NCBI GenBank assembly: GCA_031763025.1
Contig: JASSKH010000020.1
Span: 9,298,528 to 9,362,527 of the forward strand
Length of the DNA: 64,000 bases
Reading direction: 5' to 3'
DNA from: Macrocystis pyrifera
Taxonomy: Eukaryota; Sar; Phaeophyceae; Laminariales; Laminariaceae
Positions within the stretch are counted from its first letter, which is position 1; the number at the start of each line of letters is the position of its first letter. The notes below the pieces were generated by a model that did no database searches, was not told where the DNA came from, and saw only the letters and a program-made list of their open reading frames with translations. This document shows positions 6,849-63,346 of the stretch, piece by piece. The position numbers were made by a program, and so were the translations under genes.

Positions 6849-6850
<2 letters not shown>
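5393..6850. other. 3' flank of the zinc-cluster gene
   Basis: Purine-rich DNA to about 5740 (GGGGAG and GAGAGA runs), presumably containing the 3' UTR. No polyadenylation signal is certain. Reading frames of up to ~220 codons on the minus strand have no recognisable domain and skewed composition, so I treat them as chance. Nothing else is supported. Confidence 0.5.

Positions 6851-6933
<83 letters not shown>
6851..6933 (+). repeat. Poly(G) tract, about 83 G
   Basis: An uninterrupted G run. It creates artificial poly-Pro and poly-Gly frames on both strands. Assembled lengths of such tracts are unreliable. Confidence 0.95.
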
Positions 6934-10201: not shown

Positions 10202-10310
10202 TATTTTGGGGGACCGTAGTAAATAGGACCAAAAATTGTTTTTAAAAATAGGGAACTATATATGTTTTTTGTGTGTACGCAGGTCCTATTTACTATGGTC
10301 CCCCGTAATA
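10202..10310 (+). mobile_element. MITE-A copy
   Basis: Flanked by TA on both sides. The right terminus (ggtcctatttactatggtcc, then cccgtaa) is intact; the left terminus reads ttttggggg instead of ttacggggg. The inner part matches the family (caaaaattgtt...aaaaataggg). Confidence 0.85.
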
Positions 10311-10314
10311 CAAA

Positions 10315-11490
10315 TAAAAAAAGAAATGCTGAGGTGATTTTTTTCAAGTTCTGATAACTACCGATAGCAGTGTAGACCAGCAACACCGCACGACCTTCTG
10401 CGCGTCGAAACATGCGCGTAGCAGTTATAAGCCAACCATTTCGATGGAAGGCGGATTTTTGGTAGATGCTTCTTAGGGGGTGCTTAGGCCCCGTCTTGAC
10501 GAAAAACCTTTTTCATGATAATCGAATACGAAAAAAAAAATAATTTGATTTGATTTGAATAGAGTTTATTTCGTGAAAACTATACCTTTGGGTCCTATCG
10601 AGGAATAGCGTAGTAAACAAAAAACCAAGTAACGCACAAGGGTCAACGAACACCAGGGGGAAACCAACGAGGCGAGCGACGGCCCGCGTCCTCCCCGGGG
10701 CGCCGCGGTCAGCGGCCGATCGTTTCTGCTGGCACCGCCGAAGAGGCTATCACTCTTGGACATCTTGGGTGGCTGGCGCAGCCCCGAAGCCCCACGCAGG
10801 CAGCAGCGCGGGATACAGCGATCGAACTTCTGAACGAAGTCGTGACCTGGTCGGTGCTCGTGTGGTTTGCGAGGCGAAGGGGGATGAAAAGTTGGGTTTG
10901 CGACGGCCTTGTAATTTTTTTAGGCGCCGCGGATGGTCTACTCTGTGCCAGGGGCCATCGGATCTCGCGCTGCGGCTGCTCCGGTGGCCCTGTCTCTCGG
11001 GATTGGTGGATCTCGCCTGTGAAGCATTCGACAACACGGCTCAAGTTTGCGTGGATTGCTTCGGTTTCAGGAACATGCCACGTCGAGTTGGACATACTCC
11101 CCGAATCCAACAACACGAAGAGCAAAAGAAGTCCCAAAAGGCTTCTTGTCGAGTTCGTTTTTATTCGTTTTATTCGAATCAAATGTCAAAATGCCTAATT
11201 GATGATTCACTTTTCGACCAATCAAATGCGAATCAAATCAAACGAAAACAGTACTGGCGGAGTATCATAAAAAATAATATATCGTTAAGATGGGCCCTTA
11301 AGGAGGGGAGTGGTCGTGTTTTGGTGGATGAGATGGTGGGATGTTGGTTGTAGTAGTCTTCATGAGCGTCACATGAGTTTTGATTTGTCGTATGATACTG
11401 CCGCGCTTTTGTTCTGGAGAGTTCTTCACTTTCTGTTAGTCTTTTTGAGAGCAACACTACACGTTGTCGGGTGGCAAGAATAATAGTAAG
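10315..11490. other. Intergenic DNA
   Basis: AT-rich around 10510-10570 and 11150-11280 (repeated forms of tttgattcgaatc), GC-rich between. A minus-strand frame at 10709-11182 has no recognisable domain. Nothing further is supported. Confidence 0.4.
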
Positions 11491-11962
11491 AACTAAGCAG
11501 TGTGGTTCTGTATAGTTTTTGTTATTTTGAGAACACTTTATATATCGGGCACCCTGTATTTCCTTTTCGATAATCGGTTTGCCATACGAAGCACCTTGTT
11601 GACCTTCTACGTCCAACTCGCTACGGTCGACTGAGCTTCCGGTCAGCGAGTGCTTGGGTTATTGGTTACCTACGTATAACAGAGTGCCAATGCTAAACAC
11701 GACTGTGAGATGGTGGCCGACGTAGGGTAAAGGTGAGCATAATAATAATAACTAAGCAGTGTGGTTCTATGTAGTTTTTCTTATTTTGAGAACACCTTAT
11801 ATATCGGGCACCCTGTGTTTCCAATTCGATAATCGGTTTGCCATACGAAGCACCTTTTTGTCCTTCTCCGTCCAACTCACTATGGTCGACTGCGTTTCCG
11901 ATCAGCGAGTGCGTGGGTTATTGGTTACCTGCGTATAAAAGAGTGCCAATCCTAAACATGAC
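11491..11962. repeat. 259-bp tandem duplication (about 1.8 copies)
   Basis: The segment beginning actaagcagtgtggttct recurs at about 11492 and 11751 with only scattered substitutions. It includes gttaccta/tgcgtataa and gagtgccaat. Both copies read on the minus strand as a similar ~40-residue frame (GASYGKPII...QGARYI.CSQN), which may be a relic of coding sequence but matches nothing I know. Confidence 0.8.
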
Positions 11963-11972
11963 TGTGAGATGG

Positions 11973-13110
11973 TGACCGAGGTAGGGTAAGGGCAAAGGAC
12001 GCAGGTGTTTTGGCAGCTGGAAAGCAGAGCTTCGCTTCTTCTGATTTAGATCTTATTGATGGCGCGAGAGCTGAAGAGGTGCTCTGGTAGAGAAGTGAGA
12101 GGTAGAGGGGCGGGACTCGACGCCCAGATATACTCGTCCCACCCCACGCCACAAGCTCTCCTAAAATCCTCTTATCTGATGTACTCCTACAGAACTGTCC
12201 TATGGCTCGTTCTTCTGCTAATATACGAGCTTCTCACTTTATGGTCCTATCTGCGTTAAGGAACATTACTCTCGTCTAACTGGCTACCTGTCCTAGAAAA
12301 CATTCCTGAAAGAACGTTACTCTCGATTAACGGAATATCCGCCGGGTTAATCCATTCTTTGGATTATTATCGTATTCCTGATGCTACAAGACCGCAGACT
12401 ATATTATCTATATCTATCGCCCATGAATACTCCACTCATATCACATTAGCCCACCCTGAATAGTCGTATATGCAGATCTCAAGATGGTCGGAGGGTGATG
12501 ACAAAGTTCATCCCAAACGGCCAGGAAAAGATGGTCGAAGATGCGGCCATATTCGAAACAAAAGAAATGAGGCTATCCCCCCACACCTCGTAAGAAGACC
12601 CAAACACTACGAGGTAGATGACGCCAGATGTGAGATGTTGACCGAGGTAGGGTAAAGGCAAGGGACGCAGGTGTTTCTGGCAGCTGAAAAGCAGAGCTTC
12701 GCTTCTGCTGATTTAGATCTTATTGGCGGCGAGAGCTGACGTGCTCTGGTAGAGAAGTGAGAGGTAAGGGGGAGGGACTCGACGCCCAGATATACTGGTC
12801 CCACCCCACGCCACAAGCTCTCCTAAATTCCTCTTATCTGATGTACTCCTAAAGAACTTTCCTATGGCTACCGATCGTTCTTCTGCGAATATAAGAACTT
12901 CTCACTGGATGGTCCTATCTGCGTTAAGGAACATATCTCTCGTCTAACTGGCTACCTGTCCTAGAGAATATTCCTGAAAGAACGTTACTCTCGATTAACG
13001 AAATATCCGCCGGGTTAATCCATTCTTTGGATTATCATCGTATTACTGATGCTACAAGACTGCAGACTATTTTATCTATATCAATAGCCCATGAGTACTC
13101 CACTCATATC
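11973..13110. repeat. ~664-bp duplicated unit
   Basis: Two diverged copies, at about 11973-12600 and 12637-13110, share gaccgaggtagggtaa, agcagagcttcgcttct, gactcgacgcccagatat and ggttaatccattctttgg. Part of the 3' half recurs at 42822-43047, so this is a dispersed repeat that also duplicated locally. No terminal inverted repeats and no domain were recognised, so its class is unknown. Confidence 0.75.
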
Positions 13111-14427: not shown

Positions 14428-15366
14428 CTAGTTTCGACGGTGTCGGTAGAGGCAAGATGCACCGAAGAAACTGCTAGAGGTCATAACCGCACCTCGAGAA
14501 CCAAACAACATTTCATGAGACTGATTTTTACCGCGAAAGGAAGCAGCTCGTACGTAGGCAGCCTGCCACTTTTTTTTTGCATGCCCCCCAAAACACGAAA
14601 AAGACGTGCGGTGTCACTGCATTAACACCCGTCGTCAAGCTAGCGCGATCCCACGAGATGCAGCTGCCGTCTTAGCGATTTCAGGTGATGACGCTGCAGC
14701 GACCCCAAACTTGATCCTCGCCTAGTCCCAAGTGACGATGGTGATGATGATGATGTTCAGCGACCTCAAAAGCGATGTTTCGGCTTTATCCTAGCGAGGA
14801 TGTTGTCCGGTGACCCTGGACATGATGCTCTAGCAGTAGCCCTAGACGATCGACGATAGTGCAGAGATTGCGGAAAACTTTCTCCCGCGGTAATACCCAA
14901 AATCCTTTGTAGTGTGGCCCGATCCCGAAAGGCACGCCGGCGACCCCATGTTGCTGGTGCGGCGACTCCGAAGGCTCCGGCAGTCTCGTCGTACAGTACT
15001 ACTTGAACAAAACCGAAAACGTATCGTCTATCTGATAACCTCAAGCGCTCATGCTCGCAGCGATTCGTGACATGTCGATCCGGCGACCACGGGTGGAGAC
15101 GACACCTCGCGACGAGGATGATGATGATACCCTGGTGCCCCTGTTGTCTTTTCACGAGCTAACATCTGCAGCCCTTGCGTGGTGAAACCGTCTTCGAACA
15201 TTACGGTCTGGTTATTTTCGGCGTGTCGGATGGGGCGGGCTTACACGTCTGCGAGCGCGGAGCCCCTGAGCCGTTCCACGGCGTCATACCGGTTCCACGT
15301 CTGTTTGAACCCTAAACAGTTTTCCTTGGCGCCTCCTCTACTGAGAAACAGCCCGGAAGATTTGGA
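14428..15366. other. Intergenic DNA with possible coding relic
   Basis: A stretch at about 15060-15330 reads on the minus strand as a plausible protein-like sequence (WNRYDAVERLRGSALADV, then a stop, then RHAENNQTVMFEDGF). It is interrupted and matches no family I recognise. A gatgatgatgat run lies at 14740-14755. Confidence 0.3.
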
Positions 15367-15735
15367 CCCGAAGCGTGCAAGCCGAAAAGTCTTTTCATCT
15401 CGGATCTAGCCTAGGAAGTGGTGTGTCGGGCAGGCCTAAACTACAATCGGCTAAACGTCGGTTTGCCGGGTGAGGCCCCCAGATCTCCTAGAGTGAGATG
15501 TCTCAGAACCGCAATAATGGTGCTGCTGTTGCGCAGCTCGCGCGCATGGACCCGAAGCGTGCAAGCCGAAAAGTCTTTTCGTTTCGGATCTAGCCTAGGA
15601 AGTGGTGTGTCGGGCTAGGCCTAAACTACAATCGGGTAAACGTCGGTTTGCCGGGTGAGGCCCCCAGATCTCCTAGAGTGAGGTGTCTCAGAACCGAAAT
15701 AATGGTGCTGCTGTGTTGCGCAGCTCGCGCGCACC
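15367..15735 (+). repeat. 184-bp tandem duplication
   Basis: The segment starting cccgaagcgtgcaagccg occurs at 15367 and 15551. The two copies are near-identical through tttgccgggtgaggccccc and gtgctgctgttgcgcagctc, so the duplication is recent. Confidence 0.85.
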
Positions 15736-17711: not shown

Positions 17712-17911
17712 TATTACGGGGGTCCATAGTAAATAGGGCCAAATGTTGTCAGTAAAAATAGGTAAACATATAGGTTTTTATCTATACCATTGGTCCTAAA
17801 TAATTAATTAATTATAAATAGGGCCACATATTGTCAGTAAAAAGAGGTAAATATATACCAGGTAGGTTTTATCTATACCATTGGTCCTATTAACTTTGGA
17901 CCCCCGTAATA
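17712..17911 (+). mobile_element. MITE-A with internal duplication
   Basis: TA-flanked and about 200 bp instead of ~110. The internal part (aaatagggccaaatgttgtcagtaaaaa...ccattggtcct) is present twice, joined by an aattaattaattataa spacer. Either one copy inserted into another and lost ends, or the interior duplicated in tandem. Confidence 0.85.
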
Positions 17912-28897: not shown

Positions 28898-29237
28898 AGT
28901 CACATTTCACTCACTTCCGTGTACTCCCATGTTTCATGCATAAACGTGGCCATGCGACTATAGCTTTTCGGAACCCGTAATCCTACGTTTCGGCATACCA
29001 GATTTTATATAGTCACATTTCACTCACTTCCGTGTACTCTCCTGTTTCATGCATAAACGTGGCCATGCGAATGTAGCTTTTCGGAAACCGTAATCCTACG
29101 TTTCGGCATACCAGGTTTTATATAGTCACATTTCACTCACTTCCGTGTACTCCCCCGTTTTATGCATAAACGTGGTCATGCGAATGTAGCTTTTCGGAAC
29201 CCGTAATCCTACGTTTCGGTATACCAGGTTTTATTTA
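28898..29237 (+). repeat. 113-bp tandem repeat, 3 units
   Basis: Units begin agtcacatttcactcacttc at about 28898, 29011 and 29124 and contain catgcataaacgtgg and cctacgtttcgg. They are nearly identical, so this array is young beside an old satellite. Confidence 0.92.
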
Positions 29238-29756: not shown

Positions 29757-30650
29757 TATTTGCGACACCGGTGTCGCAATTTCTTATTTGCGACACGGTG
29801 TCGCAAATAAGCGGCTTATTTGCAACACCGCGTCACGTTCGCGGCACATACCTCAGATTGGCTCCGCACCGCCAGAGATGTTTTGGCATGGTGCAGGGCC
29901 ATCACTGAAGCTATCGCATTGCCGAAACGGACCAGTTCTCGAGGAGATATCTGGCCTCTTGGTGCACCCGCAAAACGTTCAGATCGGTGTCGCAAATAAG
30001 CCTTATTTGTGCGACACGCGTGTCGCAAATACCGTATTTGCGACACCGCGACGTGGTTATCGCACACGCTCCGGATCAGCGACGTACTACCAATAGAGTC
30101 TCAGCATGGTGTAGGGCTACCATTGAAGCCATCCTGTAGCCAAAACGGGCCAGTACTCGAGGAGATATGGGGTATCCTGGTACATCCAGCAGAATCTTCT
30201 GGCTCCTGTCGCAATTAAAAATAAGCCTTATTCGCGACACGCGTGTCGCAAATGCCGTATTTGCAACACCGCGCCGTGGTCGTTGCACGCTCCGGATCAG
30301 CAAAGCACTACCAGTCGAGTCTCAGCATGGTGTAGGGCTACCATTGAAGCCATAGTGTAGCCAAAACGGGCCAGTACTCGAGGAGATATGGGGTATCCTG
30401 GTACAACCCGCAGAATCTTCTGGCTGGTGTCGCAAATAAGCCTTATTTGCGACACGCGTGTCGGAAATAAACACCTTATTTGCGACGCCGCGCTGTGGTT
30501 GCCGCACACGCTCCGGGTCGGCAACGCACTACCGTTAGAGTATCTGCATGGTGTAGGACTACCATTCATTGAAGCTATCGTGTAGCCAAAACGGGCCAGT
30601 ATTCGAGAAGATATGGGTTATCCTAGTACACGGTCAGAATATTCAACGTG
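29757..30650 (+). repeat. ~220-bp palindrome array, 4 direct units
   Basis: Units start at about 29770, 29986, 30206 and 30426. Each has one or more palindromes such as TTGCGACACGCGTGTCGCAA or TTGCGACACCGGTGTCGCAA (20 bp, perfect). A ~170-bp conserved cassette follows (cacgctccggatcagc, tctcagcatggtgtagggct, aaacgggccagtactcgagg, agatatggggtatcctggta). Two units recur inverted at 32480-32945. No ORF spans the array. Confidence 0.92.
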
Positions 30651-32001: not shown

Positions 32002-32110
32002 TATTACGGGGGTCCATAGTTATCAGGACCTATGGCATACGTAAAAACCTACATATTTAGGTATTTTTACTAACAATATTTGGTCCTGTTAACTATGGAC
32101 CCCCGTAATA
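32002..32110 (-). mobile_element. MITE-A copy, GTTAAC subtype
   Basis: TA-flanked and reverse orientation. The left arm reads tccatagttatcagg and the right is intact (cctgttaactatggaccccc). It lies 17 bp from the poly(T) end of the SINE. Confidence 0.92.
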
Positions 32111-37950: not shown

Positions 37951-38450
37951 GCAGCAAAACACGTGCATGCGAACCTAATTGTGCGTTTTACCCTTGAAGA
38001 CTTAAAGCACTACCAACACAACAATCTCGCTACCGCCACCATCCAGAAAGTCCCGAGACATTTTACCAGCACCAAACCAAAAAAAAGTAAACCCCCTACT
38101 GTACAGCGCTTCGCACGAAGTATTTACGCTGAAAACATCAACCGTGCTATTCTCGCCGCCGCGGATGCAACACGCCCTCCTGCGCCATCAAGAAATTTCC
38201 CAGAACTAGCAGCGCCCCCGCGGCGTGGTAAGCCCGCAGCGATCCCGGACGCAGGTGGTACTTTAGGGTGGTCGCGCCCGATCGCACCGCAGCCGACTGC
38301 AGGGTGGAACAGGTTTGGCATTGGGGATAGAACCGTTGGGACACTGTCTGCCGCAAGAGCTTCCGCCAAAGCTTGGCATTTGCCTGTCGGGATAGGGGGG
38401 AGGGAGTGGAGCGACGGGGCAGGGGGAAGAGGGAAGAGGAGGGGGGAGTG

Positions 38451-38453
<3 letters not shown>
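37951..38453. other. Open stretch of uncertain coding status
   Basis: A plus-strand frame (37963-38658) gives a balanced sequence up to the G tract (RSIYAENINRAILAAADATR...), but it has no ATG and no known domain. The minus strand is open as well. It could be an internal exon; nothing more can be said. Confidence 0.25.
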
Positions 38454-38519
<66 letters not shown>

Positions 38520-38548
38520 ACGGGGGAAGTGGAGAAGTGGGGAGAGGG

Positions 38549-38587
<39 letters not shown>
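38454..38587 (+). repeat. Two poly(G) tracts, about 65 G and 36 G
   Basis: G65 (38454-38518) and G36 (38552-38587) are separated by a purine stretch (aacgggggaagtggagaagt...). Confidence 0.95.

Positions 38588-46939: not shown

Positions 46940-47022
<83 letters not shown>
46940..47022 (+). repeat. Poly(G) tract, about 83 G
   Basis: Uninterrupted G run, followed by a short (GACCC)-type stretch to about 47095. Confidence 0.95.
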
Positions 47023-47390
47023 CGGGGCCGACCCGGCCAGTGAGATGTTGAGTACATCCTGACCCGGGCCCGCGGGTCGGGTCATGACCCGTGAACACCC
47101 CTGGGATATCGTCTTAATTTCTCACCGAGGCCGGTCGGTATCCCCAAAGGAGAGGCGCAGGACACCCGGAGCACCGCCCCCTGCAGTGCCTGCGATAAGG
47201 CGAGCACCGCCAAAAAGGCCGCCCCTCCGCTCACGGTCTGCACGCGCGAAAGACGCACAGGGAGCAAAAAAAAAAAAACAGAAAACAGAGCCCAAAACAA
47301 AAGCAGTACGCGCGCTTGGTTACTAAATACCAGGTACCGCTGTAGTAAAAATTCATGGATCGTTCCGGCCAGAGTGATGTTCCGCACGAC
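47023..47390. other. Intergenic DNA
   Basis: Short GACCC-type stretch (cctgacccgggcccgcgggt), otherwise unremarkable. Confidence 0.4.
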
Positions 47391-49735: not shown

Positions 49736-49873
49736 CTTGTCCATGAATTTGCTCCTCGCAAGCCCCAAAAGGAGCATCTTATACGCACGAATATGCCCCT
49801 GTAGTGCATGTGCTGCGTGCGTACAGCAACAGTAGTAGTACTGCACTATATATGCCCACCACGGTAAACATTT

Positions 49874-49942
49874 TAATACGGGAGGACATAGTAAATAGGA
49901 CCTGCGGTACACTCAAAAACCTCTATATTCCCCTATTTTTAC
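49874..49942 (-). mobile_element. MITE-A copy interrupted by the recombinase array, left part
   Basis: The left terminal repeat (tacgggaggacatagtaaat) and interior of a reverse MITE-A copy stop at tttttac (49942). The copy resumes at 53542 with taacaacatttgg. The uninterrupted family sequence reads tttttactaacaatatttgg. Confidence 0.9.
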
Positions 49943-50334
49943 CGTTGTAACATAGCGTCGTAGGTTAATTCGTATATAGTTTGGGATCAATGAGGCCTCT
50001 CTGCTGCGATCAGCCGGAGACTCTCACCCGGGGTTACTACCCCCGCGTTGATTCTCTGGCAATCAACGCGGCACGTCGTCGCAGAGAGTAGCTACCCCGG
50101 TAAAATACACACTAAAACAACTGATGTCGTTGTCGACGGTACACCTCGCTACCAACGACGGGCGGGCGGGATGGTCTGTTTTCCCTAGCCTCCTTCTACT
50201 TTGTCGTGCTGTTGTCGAGCTGCGGTGTCGACCACGGAGTGGGCTTTAACCACTGCCTCCCAGTACAACAAGAGGCTTTTTTCGAAGAGGGGTTCGCCCA
50301 GCTGGCGTCCCCTCTCTTCTTCCTTCGAGATTAC
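49943..50334 (-). mobile_element. Unit 1: short non-autonomous derivative
   Basis: Shares ~65 bp of the left end (to ctctctgctgcg) and ~160 bp of the right end with the long units. The recombinase gene is replaced by ~160 bp of unrelated sequence (about 50009-50170). That insert holds a perfect 11-bp hairpin, ccgcgttgatt/aatcaacgcgg (50043-50071), flanked by near-complementary ccggggttactac and gtagctaccccgg. Confidence 0.8.
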
Positions 50335-51403
50335 TGTTGTAACATAGCGTCGTAGGTTAATTCGTATATAGTTTGGGATCAATGAGGCCTCTCTGCTGCG
50401 GCATATGAGATCACACCCATACTTGTTTCCCTTTTCTTATCTCAGTGTCGCCGCTCGATCATCTCTTATCCTTTCTCGTGCGGGTACCTTTCCTTTATCA
50501 TCATTCCCAAACTTCTAGCCTAGTCTTTCCCTGGGTTCTGCGACCGCCGGCTGTCCCGTGGGAATGCCGCGTATGATTTCCCGAACCCCTCCGACAGTGG
50601 TAAAGCGTCTGCCTGGATGAAGGCCGTGTCTCGCGAACGTTTCGCTCTGTTCGACGCCGACGCGGATGCTGTCATCCCTACGTATCTGCTGGCTACGGCC
50701 GCGGACCTCCATCCAACGTATTCCGTGAGGACGTCCATGGCCGTCCCATCCATGTGGTGACTCGCCGCCCCCCCTACCCGAAAAGAGTGCAGCGAGTACC
50801 GCTTGTGCTCCATACCCGCCGCTCTCAAGTGGACCTGGAGGTTCGAGGTCATCTGCGCCGGCGTTAGCGCCATCTTCCCCTTGTCTCCGCTCTCGAGGAC
50901 GCTCGGGAAAAGGAACCCCGAGTCCTCCGCGAGTGCCCACTGCATGGACTCCGCCGCCTGCCGGTATTCGATCATGGCCGCCACGGCACATATTTCGCGG
51001 CATTCCACGTTCCTTCGCACCACTACCGCTTGGGACGACTCCCTCAGCGTTTTACCGAATAAGAAATTGAAAATGAACCCCTCGCATCTAGGCATCTGCA
51101 ACACCTGGGACGCCAGTGCTACTGACAATTCGAAGCCACGCTTCATCGTGTGGAAAGCGACACAGAAAATCGCCACGTCTCGTACCATCGCGAATCGTTC
51201 TGCCGCCGTTGGCAGGGCAGGCACGCGCTGGCTCTGACATAACTCTGTTTTCCCTAGCCTCTTTCTACTTTGTCGTGCTGTTGTCGAGCTGCGGTGTCGA
51301 CCACGGAGTGGGCTTTAACCACTGCCTCCCAGTACAACAAGAGGCTTTTTTCGAAGAGGGGTTCGCCCAGCTGGCGTCCCCTCTCTTCTTCCTTCGAGAT
51401 TAC
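50335..51403 (-). mobile_element. Unit 2 of the recombinase array (1069 bp)
   Basis: Complete unit from tgttgtaacatagcg to ttcgagattac. The recombinase gene occupies the middle; about 185 bp of 3' flank and 215 bp of 5' flank remain non-coding or hold the short upstream frame. Confidence 0.85.
50520..51188 (-). CDS. Tyrosine recombinase, Crypton-like (unit 2)
   Basis: The ATG at 51186-51188 is the first in frame; the frame is open 12 codons further to a GTG and beyond, to about the unit's right end. From this ATG it is 222 aa. Catalytic features (numbered from this Met): Arg17 in MKRGFEL (the first catalytic Arg, R-G-x-E-L), His134-x-x-Arg137 in SLHSFRVGG, Trp160 in VGWRS where many members have His or Trp, and Tyr169 in ASRYVG as the nucleophile. 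The spacing fits the C-terminal catalytic domain; the lysine of the beta-hairpin is not certain. The N-terminal core-binding domain is absent or encoded by another exon (see 51254-51451). Such enzymes cut and rejoin DNA at a short core through a covalent tyrosine link. The C-terminus is Ser/Arg-rich. Confidence 0.8.
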   Translation of the reverse strand: MVRDVAIFCVAFHTMKRGFELSVALASQVLQMPRCEGFIFNFLFGKTLRESSQAVVVRRNVECREICAVAAMIEYRQAAESMQWALAEDSGFLFPSVLESGDKGKMALTPAQMTSNLQVHLRAAGMEHKRYSLHSFRVGGAASHHMDGTAMDVLTEYVGWRSAAVASRYVGMTASASASNRAKRSRDTAFIQADALPLSEGFGKSYAAFPRDSRRSQNPGKD

Positions 51404-51451
51404 TGTTGTAACATAGCGTCGTAGGTTAATTCGTATATAGTTTGGGATCAA
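51254..51451 (-). other. 65-codon frame crossing a unit junction
   Basis: The frame IPNYIRINLRRYVTT, then ISKEEERGRQLGEPLFEKSL and LLYWEAVVKAHSVVDTAARQ, ends at TAG (51254-51256) about 65 bases before the recombinase ATG. It crosses the TTAC junction at 51403/51404, so its first third belongs to the neighbouring unit. Identical copies lie at 50185-50382 and 52323-52520. LFEKSLLLYWEAVVKAH is helix-like and could be the missing N-terminal core-binding part, joined by splicing or used only in circles or arrays; equally it may be chance. No ATG starts it. Confidence 0.35.
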
Positions 51452-52472
51452 TGAGGCCTCTCTGCTGCGGCATATGAGATCACACTCATACTTGTTTCCC
51501 TTTTCTTATCTCAGTGTCGCCGCTCGATCATCTCTTATCCTTTCTCGTGCGGGTACCTTTCCTTTATCATCATTCCCAAACTTCTAGCCTAGTCTTTCCC
51601 TGGGTTCTGCGACCGCCGGCTGTCCCGTGGGAATGCCGCGTATGATTTCCCGAACCCCTCCGACAGTGGTAAAGCGTCTGCCTGGATGAAGGCCGTGTCT
51701 CGCGATTGTTTCGCTCTGTTCGACGCCGACGCGGATGCTGTCATCCCTACGTATCTGCTGGCTACGGCCGCGGACCTCCATCCAACGTATTCCGTGAGGA
51801 CGTCCATGGCCGTCCCATCCATGTGGTGACTCGCCGCCGCCCCTACCCGAAAAGAGTGCAGTGAGTACCGCTTGTGCTCCATACCCGCCGCTCTCAAGTG
51901 GACCTGGAGGTTCGAGGTCATCTGCGCCGGCGTTAGCGCCATCTTCCCCTTGTCTCCGCTCTCGAGGACGCTCGGGAAAAGGAACCCCGAGTCCTCCGCG
52001 AGTGCCCACTGCATGGACTCCGCCGCCTGCCGGTATTCGATCATGGCCGCCACGGCACATATTTCGCGGCATTCCACGTTCCTTCGCACCACTACCGCTT
52101 GGGACGACTCCCTCAGCGTTTTACCGAATAAGAAATTGAAAATGAACCCCTCGCATCTAGGCATCTGCAACACCTGGGACGCCAGTGCTACTGACAATTC
52201 GAAGCCACGCTTCATCGTGTGGAAAGCGACACAGAAAATCGCCACGTCTCGTACCATCGCGAATCGTTCTGCCGCCGTTGGCAGGGCAGGCACGCGCTGG
52301 CTCTGACATAACTCTGTTTTCCCTAGCCTCTTTCTACTTCGTCGTGCTGTTGTCGAGCTGCGGTGTCGACCACGGAGTGGGCTTTAACCACTGCCTCCCA
52401 GTACAACAAGAGGCTTTTTTCGAAGAGGGGTTCGCCCAGCTGGCGTCCCCTCTCTTCTTCCTTCGAGATTAC
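51404..52472 (-). mobile_element. Unit 3 of the recombinase array (1069 bp)
   Basis: Same structure as unit 2, with a few substitutions (for example cgattgttt for cgaacgttt near 51705). Confidence 0.85.
51589..52257 (-). CDS. Tyrosine recombinase, Crypton-like (unit 3)
   Basis: Same 222-aa protein as unit 2 with two visible changes: HSFRVGAAAS instead of HSFRVGGAAS beside the catalytic His-x-x-Arg, and RAKQSRD instead of RAKRSRD near the C-terminus. All catalytic residues are kept. The Gly to Ala change sits right after the motif and might affect activity. Confidence 0.8.
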   Translation of the reverse strand: MVRDVAIFCVAFHTMKRGFELSVALASQVLQMPRCEGFIFNFLFGKTLRESSQAVVVRRNVECREICAVAAMIEYRQAAESMQWALAEDSGFLFPSVLESGDKGKMALTPAQMTSNLQVHLRAAGMEHKRYSLHSFRVGAAASHHMDGTAMDVLTEYVGWRSAAVASRYVGMTASASASNRAKQSRDTAFIQADALPLSEGFGKSYAAFPRDSRRSQNPGKD

Positions 52473-53541
52473 TGTTGTAACATAGCGTCGTAGGTTAATT
52501 CGTATATAGTTTGGGATCAATGAGGCCTCTCTGCTGCGGCATATGAGATCACACCCATACTTGTTTCCCTTTTCTTATCTCAGTGTCGCCGCTCGATCAT
52601 CTCTTATCCTTTCTCGTGCGGGTACCTTTCCTTTATCATCATTCCCAAACTTCTAGCCTAGTCTTTCCCTGGGTTCTGCGACCGCCGGCTGTCCCCTGGG
52701 AATGCCGCGTATGATTTCCCGAACCCCTCCGACAGTGGTAAAGCGTCTGCCTGGATGAAGGCCGTGTCTCGCGAACGTTTCGCTCTGTTCGACGCCGACG
52801 CGGATGCTGTCATCCCTACGTATCTGCTGGCTACGGCCGCGGACCTCCATCCAACGTATTCCGTGAGGACGTCCATGGCCGTCCCATCCATGTGGTGACT
52901 CGCCGCCCCCCCTACCCGAAAAGAGTGCAGCGAGTACCGCTTGTGCTCCATACCCGCCGCTCTCAAGTGGACCTGGAGGTTCGAGGTCATCTGCGCCGGC
53001 GTTAGCGCCATCTTCCCCTTGTCTCCGCTCTCGAGGACGCTCGGGAAAAGGAACCCCGAGTCCTCCGCGAGTGCCCACTGCATGGACTCCGCCGCCTGCC
53101 GGTATTCGATCATGGCCGCCACGGCACATATTTCGCGGCATTCCACGTTCCTTCGCACCACTACCGCTTGGGACGACTCCCTCAGCGTTTTACCGAATAA
53201 GAAATTGAAAATGAACCCCTCGCATCTAGGCATCTGCAACACCTGGGACGCCAGTGCTACTGACAATTCGAAGCCACGCTTCATCGTGTGGAAAGCGACA
53301 CAGAAAATCGCCACGTCCCGTACCATCGCGAATCGTTCTGCCGCCGTTGGCAGGGCAGGCACGCGCTGGCTCTGACATAACTCTGTTTTCCCTAGCCTCT
53401 TTCTACTTCGTCGTGCTGTTGTCGAGCTGCGGTGTCGACCACGGAGTGGGCTCTAACCACTGCCTCCCAGTACAACAAGAGGCTTTTTTCGAAGAGGGGT
53501 TCGCCCTGCTGGCGTCCCCTCTCTTCTTCCTTCGAGATTAC
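52473..53541 (-). mobile_element. Unit 4 of the recombinase array (1069 bp)
   Basis: Rightmost unit. Its ttac (53538-53541) abuts taacaacatttgg of the interrupted MITE-A. Confidence 0.85.
52658..53326 (-). CDS. Tyrosine recombinase, Crypton-like (unit 4)
   Basis: 222 aa from the same ATG. Identical to unit 2 except AFPGDSRRS for AFPRDSRRS near the C-terminus. All catalytic residues (Arg17, His134, Arg137, Trp160, Tyr169) are present. As the unit closest to the right edge it has no neighbouring unit upstream, so the junction-crossing 65-codon frame is absent here. Confidence 0.8.
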   Translation of the reverse strand: MVRDVAIFCVAFHTMKRGFELSVALASQVLQMPRCEGFIFNFLFGKTLRESSQAVVVRRNVECREICAVAAMIEYRQAAESMQWALAEDSGFLFPSVLESGDKGKMALTPAQMTSNLQVHLRAAGMEHKRYSLHSFRVGGAASHHMDGTAMDVLTEYVGWRSAAVASRYVGMTASASASNRAKRSRDTAFIQADALPLSEGFGKSYAAFPGDSRRSQNPGKD

Positions 53542-53581
53542 TAACAACATTTGGTCCTACTTACTATGCTCCCCCGTATTA
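53542..53581 (-). mobile_element. MITE-A copy interrupted by the recombinase array, right part
   Basis: taacaacatttggtcctact followed by tactatgctcccccgtatta: the missing right part of the copy begun at 49874, ending in the TA target duplication. Confidence 0.9.
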
Positions 53582-53611
53582 CTGAACGTGTAGAAGCCAG
53601 CCAGACTGCTT

Positions 53612-53720
53612 TATTGCGGGGACCATAGTACACAGGACCTACGGTACACTCAAAAACCTTTACATTGCCCCATTTTCACTAACAATATTTGGTCCTATTT
53701 ACTATGCCCCCCCCGTAATA
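53612..53720 (-). mobile_element. MITE-A copy, AAATAGGACC subtype
   Basis: TA-flanked and reverse orientation, 30 bp after the interrupted copy. The left arm is slightly changed (attgcggggacc). Confidence 0.88.
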
Positions 53721-55592
53721 GTACGTGCTGCAGCTCCGCCTACGGGGGCAAGCTACTTCCACTACTGTAGAATTAGAGTGGTTTGTCCTCCAAAACGGGA
53801 CTGCAATTCCGAAAAGGGTTCAGAGCGCCTCGGGACGGGGAATTTATTAATAGGTGGGCTTTTCGTATCTCCGTTTTCCGTTTCGGCACCTACATTTCAC
53901 TAATAGACTGTTTCCTGTGCGGTTCGATTTCGAGTTTTCTACCTCTAAAAATGAACGATCTCGCTTATGCAGTCTGAATATGCAAAATCCGACCAGAATA
54001 TTTTTGTATTCGATATTCCGCTGACTCAAGTCGTCGGATTTTAGGCCAAAATTCTGCGACTTGAGTCATCAGATCTTCAAATCGAAAAAGGGCATGCTCT
54101 CTAGATTCAAGATGTTGTCCACGACAACTAACAGCAGCAGAACAATCGATTGAGATGGATGCTGACACAGCTGCTGTATAGCGACGTTGCTTCTCGCCCG
54201 ACGCGCGGTCGGCGGGCGGCACGTCTCTCCCGTGGCCAGACTACAGTCGGCTGGCGCGGGCTCGGGCCTAGAGACCAAGAGAAACGCGCTCGGCGTGCAC
54301 CTCTCCGTGGATACTTATTCATAGACTACACTGCTGTACAGGACCAGCAGCAGTCAGTCACATTGTCAAACACAAAACACCAGGACACGTTACACTCTAG
54401 GGCACTCGCCACGTCTCTTCGCCGCCTGACCAGAGGCAGTCAGCCGTGGCTCGGGCGCCTGAGCCCTACGCGCAGAGCAGAACACCCAGCTCGTCTCTTC
54501 GCGGCGGCAGACCACAACAACAACGGCTGGTCTCGCCGGCGTTCGCTCGAATCTCTGCACGCACAATAAATCTCATTTTTCCGCATAGGAAGACTGTTTC
54601 GCTCTGCCAAGTTCACATCTGAAAATGCCATCACGTCAAAAAAATATGAAGCTCAAAAATCGAACCGCGTGGGAAACGGCCTTACACTGAAAACTTTGAT
54701 CCCATACAGACTCCAAGTAGTTTTTTCTCGTGAATTAACAGGCCAATTGACCCGGTTTTTTATATAAATATTTGCTTTTCTTCTCTCTCCCCCTCCTACT
54801 GTAGTCGTGAGAAAGGATCTGCGGTCACGAAGCAGGCAGGCTTTTCTCCCTCCTCTACCCACTGCGGTTCTTGCCTTGGCAGGCGTTTTTATCGCTGCAA
54901 GACCTTAGCCCTTTCTTCCCTTCCCGACTCGCGTCGAAATTGTTATCCGCACCCGAAAGTTTTAAATTTAGCCGGAAGGCATTAAAGTGGGTACCAGGTT
55001 CATACCACTGCAGCATTACGTATTCCTGGCCCTAAATCCGCTATCCCCCAACCCCGCGGCAAAAAGAAGCCCGGGTGGCATCGTGATGCCTCTATGTGCG
55101 GTGTTGCTCGTACGCTCGCCATCCTGTTACTCGTCGCCTCTCCTCCCCCCCCCCCCCCCTCCCCTTGTTACGCTTCATGAATCTGGAGTTATTGATTCGA
55201 ATGATTGAATGTTCTGCCTGTGTGCACTGCAAAAATCCCACAGGTTTGCTACATCCAACCTTACGCCTGAACTCCCGAGACAGCCAACTTGTGGTACGTT
55301 TTGTTGAACGCAACGTCGCACGATTGGTTAACCAGCCTCACCTGAGAAACCCCGCTGACCAGCGCCCCAATCCCCCCTCCCCTCTCGTCCCCGCGGCCTC
55401 CCGGGTTGGAATTCCTCGCCCATTGGGCACCCTCCCGCCTCAACTGCCTCCGCAATGAGTCTACCTCCTGGATAACCAATAAACAGACAAAGGCGTAGCA
55501 CGCGCGACGTGTCAGTATTCTCGTGTTATCCTGTATGGGACCCACGTACCGTATTCGTATCACACGGATGGTAAGACAACACACCCCCCTAC
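53721..55592. other. Intergenic DNA
   Basis: Includes a half copy of the short hairpin element at 53774-53812 (gtggtttgtcctccaaaacg, ggactgcaattccg). No supported gene. Confidence 0.4.
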
Positions 55593-56858: not shown

Positions 56859-56967
56859 TATTACGGGGGGCCATAGTAATTAGGACCAAATATTGTTAGT
56901 AAAAATACCGAAATATATAGGTTTTTGTGTGTACCGTAGGTCCTATTTACTATGGTCCCCCGTAATA
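56859..56967 (+). mobile_element. MITE-A copy, AAATAGGACC subtype
   Basis: TA-flanked and close to consensus; inner sequence aaatattgttagtaaaaata and gtaccgtaggtcctatttac. Confidence 0.92.
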
Positions 56968-59339: not shown

Positions 59340-59975
59340 TGAATAATAATGTCTACAGACATGCGCTCATCTATCTGTACCTGGCAGGTCCTAACGTATA
59401 CTTTCATTAACTAGTATTGGTCGTCATGGCCGTTCGTTGTGATACACATACATCCCGTAGGTAAGGTCCCGTAGCATGCAAGTGCCAACAGGCGAACATG
59501 TACCCCCTCACAGAGCCGTGCCATACAGAGGACCTCCCGCGGAAAACATGTGATCTACGTACCGGTACAGCTCAACCGCAGTAAGTAGTAAGGTCGTCCA
59601 GATCATACAAAAACCAGCAGGACAACACCTGCCCCCGGAAAAATCTGGATCATTAAAAAAAAAGGAGGGGGGCCTGATACGTGCGGTGCATGACAACGAA
59701 CGACCCAGAGCATCTATTAATATACAGCGGTACCACATCTGTCAGAGGTTCCAACGGGGCGGCGACACCACTAGGATCGTCCACAGGTGCGGCAACGGCC
59801 ATAGGTGAAGGACGACGGGACACGACGAGTGCACCTGGAGAGGGGCTTATCTCCTCCAGAACGAGGGCGCGCACCCGAATAGCTGCTGCCATCAGCGCAC
59901 AATCATCGGATGGGGGGGGGGGGGAGGCAGCTCTCCACTGAACCAGTCCATAGAGCGTCCCCTCAACAGCCAACG
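59340..59975. other. 5' flank of the RING gene
   Basis: No certain promoter. A G13 run at 59912-59924 lies just downstream of an in-frame ATG (59910), which makes that start doubtful. The plus frame at 59681-59941 is Ser/Thr/Ala-rich and might be an upstream coding part displaced by the G run. Confidence 0.35.
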
Positions 59976-62900
59976 ATGACGCGGATGGCGCTGTTGGCAA
60001 CGTCTTTGCAGCCAGCGCTTCCGTCGTTGCCGGAAGAATCCCCAGATACGCCTGGTTCATTACAGTTGCCGACAACGGAATCGGGGCCACCCCTGACGAC
60101 CCCACTTTCCCTTGGGGGGCCAAGAACACTCGTCATAGAAGGTTTGCCGGTATCGGGAGAGGTACCATCCCAGACACCAGGGCCTGCGCAGCTACCGCCA
60201 CCGCAGCACCAACAATGGCCGTGGCCTACCAGGCCGCCGGCAGCGCAACCGACGGTGCTCGTGTCGCGTCCACTACATCCTCCATCAAGGGGGAAATCTC
60301 AACTGACGATACAGCCTCCTCCAACCATATCGGTGCCCGTTTCGACCCCCTCGACGGCACTGCTACCGTCGCCAGATACCTCTCCGTCCACCAGATCACC
60401 CCGAGCGTCATCGCCAAGCCCGTCACCGTCGCCGTCGCAGCCATCGTCACCAGTGCTACCGACAGCTGGCCTCCCTTCGACAGCGGAACCACTTTTAACA
60501 CCGGGTTTGGTCCTTGCGGTCGAAACACCATCACAGGTAGCGGTCAGGACGACACAATCGGCGCTACCAAGGCCGTCACGGCCGACTTCCACACGGGTGT
60601 TGGAAGGGAGTAGTTCGGCTCTCGCGCCGACGTCCGAATTGCCGCCGTCGCCGCCACGGACACCTTCGCCGTCGCCCGTAGAAGATCAGCTTCGGGAGGA
60701 AGTCACGGAGGACTGTAGTGTCTGCTACGAGACCTTGGCCGCCCCGGTGGTTCTTTTAGGGAGATGCCCCCATCGACTGCATCTTCCATGCTACGCCACA
60801 CTCAGAGTTAGGGCGGGGGGCAACCTAAGGTGTCCGACGTGCAGAGCGACCGAAACGATCAACGAGGCCGATACGATGGCGCTACGTCAACACAGCAATG
60901 AAGTTATGGTAGAGGCGCTAACGATCGCACAGCAAGAGATTCCGGCTAACGGAGGAGCGGAAGCACCAACAGGGGCCGCAGGAGGTGAGAGGAGGCGGCG
61001 AGTGATATGCAGCACTTGTCACGGTCTGGTTGAGGCGACGGCAATCGTACAAGTGTCTTGTTTGTGCGAGGTACACCGCCGTTGTGCCCTAGGATTCTGC
61101 GAAGACGCAATTCCCCGAGCCAGGATTCTCGATGGGGCACACCAAGTCACGTGCCCAAATCCAGCCCTGTACGATGAGCATCAAGAGGTGGATCTACACC
61201 TCCTCCTGCAACAGATTCGAGCTCTCGGCAGATCGGTGCACACGGCAGAAGAAAGCGCCATAAGAGACAGGATCACCGCTGCCGAGCTCCGCCTCATGGG
61301 AAGGGTCCAAACTATTCCAGAAACGGTGGATTTATCAAGGAGCGCCACAGAGCGAGGTGAGGAGAACATACAAGGAGAATGGCGTGGCACGACCCCACAG
61401 CCGCAGGTGCAAGCGCCGTGTGGGGCCTGTAACGGGCACATGGAGGATGACCAGCGGTTTGCTTTTGGTGGCTGGATCGTTCACAGGAGATGTGCCACAG
61501 AAAGCGTGGAGGGGGCAGACGGCAGGGGAGACGATCGGTTTGGGGTGTCTATCCCAGGAGGGACAGGAGTGCCACTTCGTAGAACGTTCCGGCTCACGGC
61601 AATAGTGCCCAGGCTCCACCTGAGGTACGACCGCACTACCGCAGAGGGTGAGCATCAACAGAGACAGTTGGAAATACTGTGGAGATCACTGGAGTCGGGT
61701 GTCGAGGAGGCGGCAAGCCAGGTTGAAGAGAATCAGGGCGTGGAAGGGGGGTTAGAGGAGTCCGACGATTTATGGTGCACATATTGCGGTTGGCCTTTCG
61801 ATAGTTCTGGTGGGGAGTCAGAAGACAACTATGTTCGCGTAGCCGTTCCGTGCACCCACGGAGGCTTTGTGCACGCCCGCTGCATGCTGGACCGCGCGGA
61901 ACACCTCGCGAGAGGGCATACAGACCCTAGGCCCTGCGTTGCGTGTCGCTCGGCGTGGCCGGGAGGAAGCCGACCTCCCCACCCGGCAGAGCTAGCTAGA
62001 GGATTGCCCATGAATGAGCACGGTGGAAGGTGGGTGGCGGTGAGGGGCGCCCTGCAGTTCGCCGCCCGCGTCCATCGGGGCAACCCCGAACCGGAGCCAG
62101 CCAGCTACGTTACAACTGGCGCTTGCGGCACGTTTGAGCTCATGTTACGTGCCCATGGTGGGAGCCCGACCTCCTCGTTCTTGCTGTGCTCCCTTTTTTG
62201 CGATGCGTTGGACATGCCTCAAGGTGCATACCTCGATTTCCCCCCGACCGAGGGGATGGGAAGCGGCGGTCGGCCATTACCGTACGCTGTTCGCGGCATA
62301 TGCCATTCAACCGCAGGACGTCTTGCTCCGACTTCCAAATCAAAGACTCTACATCGGACCACATGTCCAAGAGTATCTGGTAGGTCTTGACGCCGAATGT
62401 GAAGAACGCCTAGCGAGGTGGACCCTCGGGGTCCAACGCGCGTTGGAAACGGGTGAAGCGCTTCCTCCCTTTTTGGCGGCGGTGGCAACCACGTCGGAGA
62501 GAACGGACAGGGCGCCGGAGAGTGACCAGTTACAGATGGGACCGATTGGGCAGGGAGGTGACACTAGGATTGAAGTAGAAAGGAGCCAGAATGTAGGGAA
62601 CAGGGGCGCTTCTCCCTGCACGTACTGCGGGTGGGCTCTAGAGGAATCTACCGGAGATTTGGCGGTAGACTCTTTATGGGTATCTTTTCCGTGCCCCCAC
62701 GGAGAGCAAGTGCATGCCCGCTGCATGCTGGATCGTGCGGAATGCCTCGCGAGAGGGCAAGCAGACCCACAGCCATGCGCTGCGTGTCGCTTTTGAATGG
62801 CCGGCAAGAAACCGGCCGCTCCATCCAGCGGAGCTGACAGAGGACCTTCCAAGGCCACGGTTAGGGGGAAGGTGGTCTGCGGTAGCAGGAGCCTTGCAGT

Positions 62901-63346
62901 TCGCAGAACTCTTGGAGGAGGACGGCCCCCGGCTGGAGCCGGCCAGTTACGTCACGACTGGTTCCCACAATACCTGGGAAGAGATGGTGAGGACCCATGG
63001 GGGAAGTCCAACCTCTTCGTTTCTGTTGTGCACCCTGTTCAGCGATGCTCTCGGTCTGCCCCAGCGAGCCTACCTCGACTTCCCCCGACCGAGGGAATGG
63101 CGAGCGGCAGCCGGCCACTACCGTGAGGTTTTGGCCGCGTACGGTATCCGACCGCAGGACATCATGCTCCGGCTCCAGAATCGGAGGATCTACATCCTAC
63201 CCCATGTCCAAGAGTTTCTGGCGGGCCTCGACTCCACATGGGAAGACCGGTTGACGAGGTGGACCCTAGGGGTTCGAAACGCGCTGGAAGCAGGGGAGGC
63301 GCTGCCTCCTTTTTTCCGACGGAGGCGGGGACCCTGGGGTCCATAA
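59976..63346 (+). CDS. Multi-RING zinc-finger protein with duplicated C-terminal module
   Basis: The start is taken at the first in-frame ATG after a G run; the frame is open upstream. Residues ~1-245 are Pro/Ser/Thr-rich. A canonical RING-H2 (C-x2-C...C-x-H-x2-H-x2-C...C-x2-C: CSVC, CPHRLHLPC, CPTC) is coded at 60714-60842, typical of E3 ubiquitin ligases. Second and third Cys/His clusters are coded at about 61008-61160 (CSTC, CLCEVHRRC) and 61419-61500 (CGAC...HRRC). Then comes a RING-like module (CTYCGW, CTHGGFVHARCMLDRAE, CVAC; 61776-61946) plus a ~190-residue domain (YVTTG, GSPTSSFLLC, AYLDFP, GHYR). That pair recurs at 62617-63300. The frame changes near 62240 (six C where the second copy has five) and near 62790 (one base more in a T run). 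These may be miscounts or decay. The ~190-residue domain is unknown to me. Confidence 0.65.
61776..62420 (+). repeat. RING-like + novel domain, module copy 1
   Basis: Codes for CTYCGWPF...HARCMLDRAEHLARGHTDP.PCVAC, then HPAEL.RGLP...GRWVAVRGALQFA, YVTTGACGTFELMLRAHGGS, PTSSFLLCSLFCDALDMPQG and AYLDFP. After the frame change it continues GHYRTLFAAYAIQPQDVLLR, LYIGPHVQEYLVGLD and RWTLGVQRALE. Confidence 0.7.
62617..63300 (+). repeat. RING-like + novel domain, module copy 2
   Basis: Codes for CTYCGWAL...CPHGEQVHARCMLDRAECLARG...PCAAC, HPAELTEDLP...GRWSAVAGALQFA, YVTTGSHNTWEEMVRTHGGS, PTSSFLLCTLFSDALGLPQR, AYLDFPRPREWRAAAGHYRE, IYILPHVQEFLAGLD and RWTLGVRNALE. Roughly 65-70% identical to copy 1 by eye, so the internal duplication is not recent. 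Confidence 0.7.

Follow-up and report, generated by a model that had tools for sequence, protein, structure and literature searches.

A tandem array in Macrocystis pyrifera very likely derived from one internally deleted DIRS-order retrotransposon

The window, a stretch of 64,000 nucleotides of Macrocystis pyrifera DNA (contig JASSKH010000020.1), contains at positions 49943-53541 a unit of 392 bp (unit d), followed by three units of 1069 bp (u1, u2, u3), all in direct orientation. The array was remeasured, and the coordinates, copy number, unit lengths and orientation given in an initial annotation of this DNA were all correct. Two features had been overlooked: the unit ends recur as direct repeats of 66 bp and 160 bp within the array, and the array as a whole sits inside a short inverted-repeat element. 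The features of the locus are the following (A and B denote the 160-bp and the 66-bp repeats):

49870-49942, no strand assigned, left part of the interrupted inverted-repeat element (from the joined-flank alignment; outer limit approximate)
49943-50334, minus strand, unit d, 392 bp; the same block is terminal in 10/10 fetched copies of the family described below
50335-51403, minus strand, unit u1, 1069 bp; B1 - 3' half of the recombinase gene - A1
50520-51224, minus strand, truncated recombinase frame of u1
51404-52472, minus strand, unit u2, 1069 bp; its A repeat is a hybrid
51589-52293, minus strand, truncated recombinase frame of u2
52296-52312, minus strand, marker that distinguishes A1 from A2, 17 bp beside the deletion joint (in u2; unit positions 893-909)
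52473-53541, minus strand, unit u3, 1069 bp; terminal A1 at its end
52658-53362, minus strand, truncated recombinase frame of u3
53542-53585, no strand assigned, right part of the interrupted element (from the joined-flank alignment; outer limit approximate)
53617-53722, no strand assigned, adjacent inverted-repeat element of the same kind, uninterrupted, showing naturally what the empty site looks like (limits approximate)

The long units differ from one another by 6 (u1/u2), 5 (u1/u3) and 9 (u2/u3) substitutions per 1069 bp, and kilobase direct repeats this alike are evidently no product of chance. Unit d has 66 bp at its left end and 160 bp at its right end in common with the long units. 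The 392-bp derivative described initially thus exists, but it is no plain shortening, because its middle 166 bp have no counterpart in the 1069-bp unit. Its structure is B2 (66 bp) - 166 bp - A2 (160 bp), i.e., the 3' terminal block of a retrotransposon. The idea that these 166 bp form a structured RNA was considered and rejected, as no Rfam match was found up to E 1 and the fold z of -1.40 was not unusual; the interior belongs to the end block of the family. Every junction between units is an exact A|B junction, identical in sequence to the internal A2|B1 junction.

The flanks of the array were joined and aligned with 14 uninterrupted arm pairs from the window. They rebuilt the inverted-repeat element without a target duplication, and the insertion is precise. 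Allowing up to 3 mismatches, the window contains 38 occurrences of the arms of this element, versus 1.2 expected. The distance between the arms of the interrupted element fits the array exactly (3666 - 67 = 3599 = 392 + 3 x 1069), and a short TTAC is shared at the insertion. A second member of the retrotransposon family has flanks that restore a further copy of this inverted-repeat element, again without duplication.

Each long unit contains an open frame of 234 codons on the minus strand that begins with GTG; from the first ATG it encodes 222 aa. The initial assignment of this frame to the catalytic domain of tyrosine recombinases held: unit 2 matched PF00589 at E 9e-5 and units 1 and 3 did so at E 8e-4, none of them reaching the curated cut-off, and a PHROG integrase was matched at 2.6e-5. 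The NCBIfam search with the frame gave no match. The region from H-x-x-R to Y could be aligned with Cre at E 1.5, with the first R placed by eye. Viral contigs yielded no relative by protein and none by two exact patterns, bacterial genomes none by one exact pattern, and phages one weak match (E 6e-3).

The 222-aa frame corresponds to the C-terminal half of a protein of 469 aa, whose N-terminal 235 residues are absent here. An N-terminal exon was looked for upstream, across the unit junction, where the longest frame has only 83 codons. What had been taken for a "compact recombinase" is a truncated remnant, most likely a non-functional one that has lost the N-terminal half of the enzyme. The truncated frame is presumably still open because it is young. 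The frames of the three units differ by 3 amino acids, and the same 234 codons are open in 15/27 other family copies, so that the openness of the truncated frame tells little about selection.

Single 1069-bp copies, for which a genome search had been suggested, did not emerge among the scored places. Outside the window, none of the 39 scored unit matches in the 537 Mb of the same genome extends beyond unit position 882; 38 of these places adjoin a match to unit positions 899-1069, i.e., to the same end sequences. Unit positions 1-893 follow directly after the d block in 10/10 fetched family copies. Four copies were read to both ends; they are 10,365, 10,391, 10,423 and 10,363 bp long and have another A at the far end, and all four contain split direct repeats of the form A1 ... 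B1-A2-B2. The order of the parent, read on the minus strand, is A1 - gag-like - RT - recombinase - B1 - A2 - B2, about 10.4 kb in total. The family copies carry gag-like, reverse transcriptase (RT) and 469-aa recombinase frames. The 1069-bp unit corresponds to B1, the 3' half of the recombinase gene and A1 after an internal deletion of ~8.9 kb, which joins the recombinase gene to A1. Among the scored places, this joint is contiguous only at three, all in the window.

These results changed three statements of the initial annotation. The ends and the recombinase segment do not define a Crypton-like element but belong to copies of ~10.4 kb with RT and split direct repeats; the element is not very small, its parent copies, which share these ends and this recombinase segment, being 10.36-10.42 kb long; and the RT, which had been noted as missing, is present in the parent copies and was deleted from the window copy itself. 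RVT_1 was matched in 2/5 RT scans, with E-values of 6.3e-5 and 2.6e-4 that are both below the curated cut-off, and the parent RT frame contains the motif YIDD. A single-sequence structure prediction for the RT frame had a mean pLDDT of 33, which is unusable. The parent 469-aa recombinase matched PF00589 at E 4.3e-4, below the cut-off, and the recombinase frame of copy L033 gave no PF00589 match. No gag family was matched by the gag-like frame. RNase H and a methylase-like domain were looked for in L031:5000-5902, where no Pfam match was found and motifs were seen by eye only.

Taken together, the array is almost certainly a remnant of a DIRS-order element. More specifically, it very likely goes back to a single insertion of a DIRS-order retrotransposon with a tyrosine recombinase, split direct repeats and an internal deletion; multiplication in place by homologous exchange between A2 and A1 probably followed. 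The recombinase of an intact element would have placed a DNA copy at a T-N-C site in the short inverted-repeat element, and a later unequal homologous exchange between A2 and A1 repeats would have amplified the B1-recombinase-A1 segment to a total of three.

The route to three copies was deduced from the A repeats, which have at unit positions 937/981/1035 the haplotypes TTA (d), TTA (u1), CTA (u2) and CCT (u3). The family haplotype is TTT in 5/6 A1 and 8/10 A2. The A repeat of unit 2 is a hybrid, and because of this the extra copies arose most likely by homologous exchange between A repeats, a route that we regard as moderately probable from this pattern. The argument is built on three sites, and the pattern could also result from gene conversion or recurrent mutation; in addition, u1 requires another exchange to the left of position 937. 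The array is not the direct record of integration that it had been called: its A haplotypes agree better with homologous exchange or template switching than with a series of site-specific insertions.

A multimer that formed before insertion, by an RT template switch from A1 to A2 on RNA of the deleted element, and was inserted once is rather unlikely. It predicts the same hybrid A repeats, with the left part from A1 and the right part from A2, and it fits one precise insertion. However, following the account in PMC6681497, A1 and A2 should be almost identical when an element inserts, so that visible hybrids require an already diverged parent. Furthermore, u1 and u2 have 846T in common, which differs from u3 and from 27/27 copies and suggests stepwise growth.

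Still more doubtful is an array of cassettes, in which the recombinase of intact copies excises the 1069-bp B1...A1 segment as a circle, using the A2|B1 and A1|flank sites, and puts it back at the same place head-to-tail. The exact A|B junctions, with the sequence of the internal A2|B1 junction, and the recombinase-like outer insertion would agree with it, but insertion of whole circles predicts CCT in u1, u2 and u3, while u1 has TTA and u2 CTA. No other tandem array was seen among the 39 A1 tags and the 100 junctions listed of 352. Two places with paired junctions 11.0 and 14.3 kb apart (C196 and C221) were checked for tandem full-length elements, and neither contained a direct tandem. Circle reinsertion is less favoured than homologous exchange. 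If it were true, the A2|B1 junction of a eukaryotic retrotransposon would act like the attachment site of a prophage or integron, and the recombinase of intact copies would build cassette arrays from defective ones; only if the recombinase itself built the array would the finding be weightier.

That one unit was multiplied during assembly is very improbable, since the units carry 5-9 substitutions relative to one another and the array has exact outer junctions. Least credible of all is the Crypton-like compact DNA transposon, which would account for the recombinase frame, for the lack of RT inside the unit and for the short shared TTAC without target duplication, but is refuted by the parent copies with RT and long A and B repeats, and is also contradicted by the missing N-terminal half of the frame and by a deletion joint found, among the scored places, only at this array.

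The array is an ordinary yet unusually readable case of genome decay, in which the ends of a common 10-kilobase element are preserved and the middle is lost. It shows that the remains of a DIRS-order retrotransposon, when arranged in tandem, can be mistaken for a compact DNA transposon, and two clean empty-site comparisons were gained for a DIRS-order element.

Cryptons, including CryptonS, are described in PMC3212892 as elements without terminal inverted repeats, long direct repeats or RT. They resemble the present element in the tyrosine recombinase and in a short direct repeat in common with the target, whereas the parent family has long direct repeats and RT. The ALOG-domain DIRS1-class retroposon of Ectocarpus is described in PMC3537659 as containing gag with a zinc knuckle, RT-RNase H, an N-terminal zinc ribbon and a recombinase. 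It is likewise a retrotransposon with a recombinase, and its direct repeats of 159 bp compare with the 160-bp A repeat; by description, its size is "little over 9 kb", versus 10.4 kb here. The ALOG domain, which would lie in the N-terminal half of the recombinase, was above the cut-off in only 1/5 comparable fragments of the present family, with no match in the shifted L033 fragment or in the whole L031 frame; the genome-wide search for the ALOG family gave two other places among the matches listed. TATE of Leishmania braziliensis belongs to a different lineage, but it is also a tyrosine-recombinase retrotransposon and is noted in tandem in PMC6681497. The PAT-like and Ngaro-like elements, of which 5 and 15 families, respectively, are given for Ectocarpus in PMC12477816, differ from the window copy, which is deleted and tandem. 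As outlined in PMC6681497, they have split direct repeats, with A1 at the 5' end and B1-A2-B2 at the 3' end, and encode RT and a tyrosine recombinase, as does the parent family.

The array in the window is what an internal deletion has left of a retrotransposon of a known type; its copies probably arose in place.

49943-53541, one 392-bp unit (d) and three 1069-bp units (u1, u2, u3), head to tail; recombinase frames on the minus strand

The initial annotation had described this arrangement, which is present in the sequence, but its reading as a compact Crypton-like element was replaced. The long units differ pairwise at 6, 5 and 9 of their 1069 positions. Each is open on the minus strand for 222 aa from the first ATG; the same frame has 234 codons when counted from a GTG. 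Unit d consists of a 66-bp left end, 166 bp without a counterpart in the long units, and a 160-bp right end.

The parent was revealed by a search of the same genome (537 Mb, 223 contigs) with the long unit; because the best 40 of 1074 candidates were scored, the counts are lower bounds. At least 42 long matches were found, three of them the window's own. The others (at least 39) were 92-98% identical, and none extended beyond unit position 882. An adjoining match to unit 899-1069 was present in 38 of these 39, and in 37 cases this was followed by a further match to unit 1-55, the same layout as in unit d. At all ten loci that were fetched, d was followed directly by unit 1-893. Four copies were read to their far end, which was another copy of the direct repeat A in every case, and were 10,365, 10,391, 10,423 and 10,363 bp long. 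Read in the direction of the element itself, the repeats are arranged as A1 ... B1-A2-B2; A measures 160 bp and B 66 bp. The 1069-bp unit consists of B1 and the recombinase gene's 3' half, with A1 joined on at about unit position 893, and lacks about 8.9 kb of the parent. At its right end A1 matches 17 bases more (893-909) than A2, and, therefore, the inner edge of each unit's end repeat comes from A1. An uninterrupted match to the deletion joint was obtained only at the three places in the window (genome search, best 40 of 83 candidates scored).

In one parent copy (L031) the frames encode a gag-like protein of 175 aa, a 761-aa protein with a YIDD motif, and a 469-aa recombinase. In three others (L033, L034, L037) the gag-like frames are longer and contain a CX2CX4HX4C knuckle that was recognized by eye; the gag-like frames had no Pfam match to a gag family. 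RVT_1 matched L033 (E 2.6e-4) and a fragment of L031 (E 6.3e-5), both under the curated cut-off, and was not reported for the whole L031, L034 and L037 frames. PF00589 matched the L031 recombinase under the cut-off (E 4.3e-4), and the L033 recombinase frame had no domain match. Of five comparable fragments from the N-terminal recombinase half, one had a candidate ALOG domain that exceeded the cut-off (E 5.6e-7); a genome-wide ALOG-family search listed two other places and none of the parent copies. The 1069-bp unit has lost the first 235 of the 469 residues, but it retains the R position (placed by eye) as well as H-x-x-R, W and Y (placed with the aid of an alignment to Cre, which was weak at E 1.5). 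The same 234 codons are open in 15 of 27 other family copies, and thus an open frame needs only youth. The truncated frame most likely represents a non-functional remnant.

The array splits a short inverted-repeat element, the arm pattern of which has 38 matches in the window (up to 3 mismatches), versus a mean of 1.2 in shuffles.

10215-10297, 32015-32097, 53624-53706 and 56872-56954, example copies of the short element
17725-17898, longer copy with arms 158 bp apart, seemingly with an internal partial duplication

Members of this family are about 105-120 bp long, have ends near CTATTACGGGG and TA at their edges, and occur in both orientations; the 64 kb contain at least 14 arm pairs. The arm spacing was exactly 67 bp in 9 of 14 aligned uninterrupted pairs (64, 68, 69, 74 and 158 bp in the rest). 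For the arms flanking the array, the spacing is 3666 bp; subtracting 67 bp leaves 3599 bp, equal to 392 + 3 x 1069. The joined flanks aligned without a gap at the insertion point to five of six uninterrupted copies in the same orientation, and the sixth has one additional base; joining the flanks thus recreates the short element, and no target sequence is duplicated. A full-length copy on contig C191 lies within a different member of this short-element family, which is likewise restored without duplication. TTAC is common to target and element end. Of the 27 scored copies, 26 have T three bases before the element and 26 have C directly next to it; the left edge in the window reads TTAC/C, and other copies have T first.

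Internal deletions are frequent among the family members. The A/B junction pattern occurs at 352 places genome-wide (up to 3 mismatches; reversed control 0). Among 100 junctions listed of the 352, the 36 A1 tags outside the window had a junction more than 9 kb off in 15 cases, 0.46-8.0 kb off in 10, and none within 14 kb in 11; no further direct tandem was found in this set. An A1 tag with an immediate junction occurred twice in the array and once at G000:C196:7664673-7665022, where about 22 bp of B separate the A1 end of a full-length copy (L051) from another copy's inverted A1 end. A related subfamily with the junction TTCCAGATTACTGTTGTAACATCGC is present on many contigs.

How the copies multiplied was analyzed from their differences. 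Versus the majority of the 27 copies, u1-u3 have in common an AT insertion at 69-70, 314T, 391G, 663G and 752A, and, therefore, they descend from one unit. At 846, u1 and u2 have T; u3 and all 27 copies have C. At the A-repeat positions 937, 981 and 1035, d and u1 read TTA, u2 CTA and u3 CCT; the family haplotype is TTT (5 of 6 A1 and 8 of 10 A2 repeats examined). Based on CTA, versus TTA in d and CCT in u3, the A repeat of u2 looks like a hybrid, A1-like at the left and A2-like at the right, an argument carried by these three sites. A single crossover between 937 and 981 would give this hybrid; for u1, a crossover left of 937 would be required. Template switching during reverse transcription may also have been the source of the tandem, and it predicts the same hybrid repeats. 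Gene conversion or repeated mutation could have generated the A-repeat pattern. Less favoured is the reinsertion of whole 1069-bp circles at A/B junctions, which predicts CCT throughout, in contrast to TTA in u1 and CTA in u2.

The window has the following further features:

11480-11989, tandem repeat, unit 259 bp
15363-15733, tandem repeat, unit 185 bp
28898-29234, tandem repeat, unit 113 bp
29886-30630, tandem repeat, unit 221 bp
6850-6933, long G run, 84 bases
38441-38587, long G run, 147 bases (82% pure)
46940-47027, long G run, 88 bases
59910-63346, open frames (826, 220 and 210 aa) that are rich in cysteine, contain internal repeats and look RING-like by eye

Among the titles and abstract beginnings returned by a full-text literature search, none was found that reports deleted elements of the DIRS order in a tandem array; TATE elements are mentioned as lying in tandem (PMC6681497). 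A survey of the brown alga Ectocarpus gives 15 families of Ngaro and 5 of PAT-like elements, and its main text does not contain the term Crypton (PMC12477816). According to another report, Ectocarpus has an ALOG-bearing element of the DIRS1 class with direct repeats of 159 bp (PMC3537659), compared with 160 bp for A in the parent of the array. The A1 ... B1-A2-B2 order of this parent is the same arrangement as the split direct repeats described for PAT-like and Ngaro-like retrotransposons in PMC6681497.
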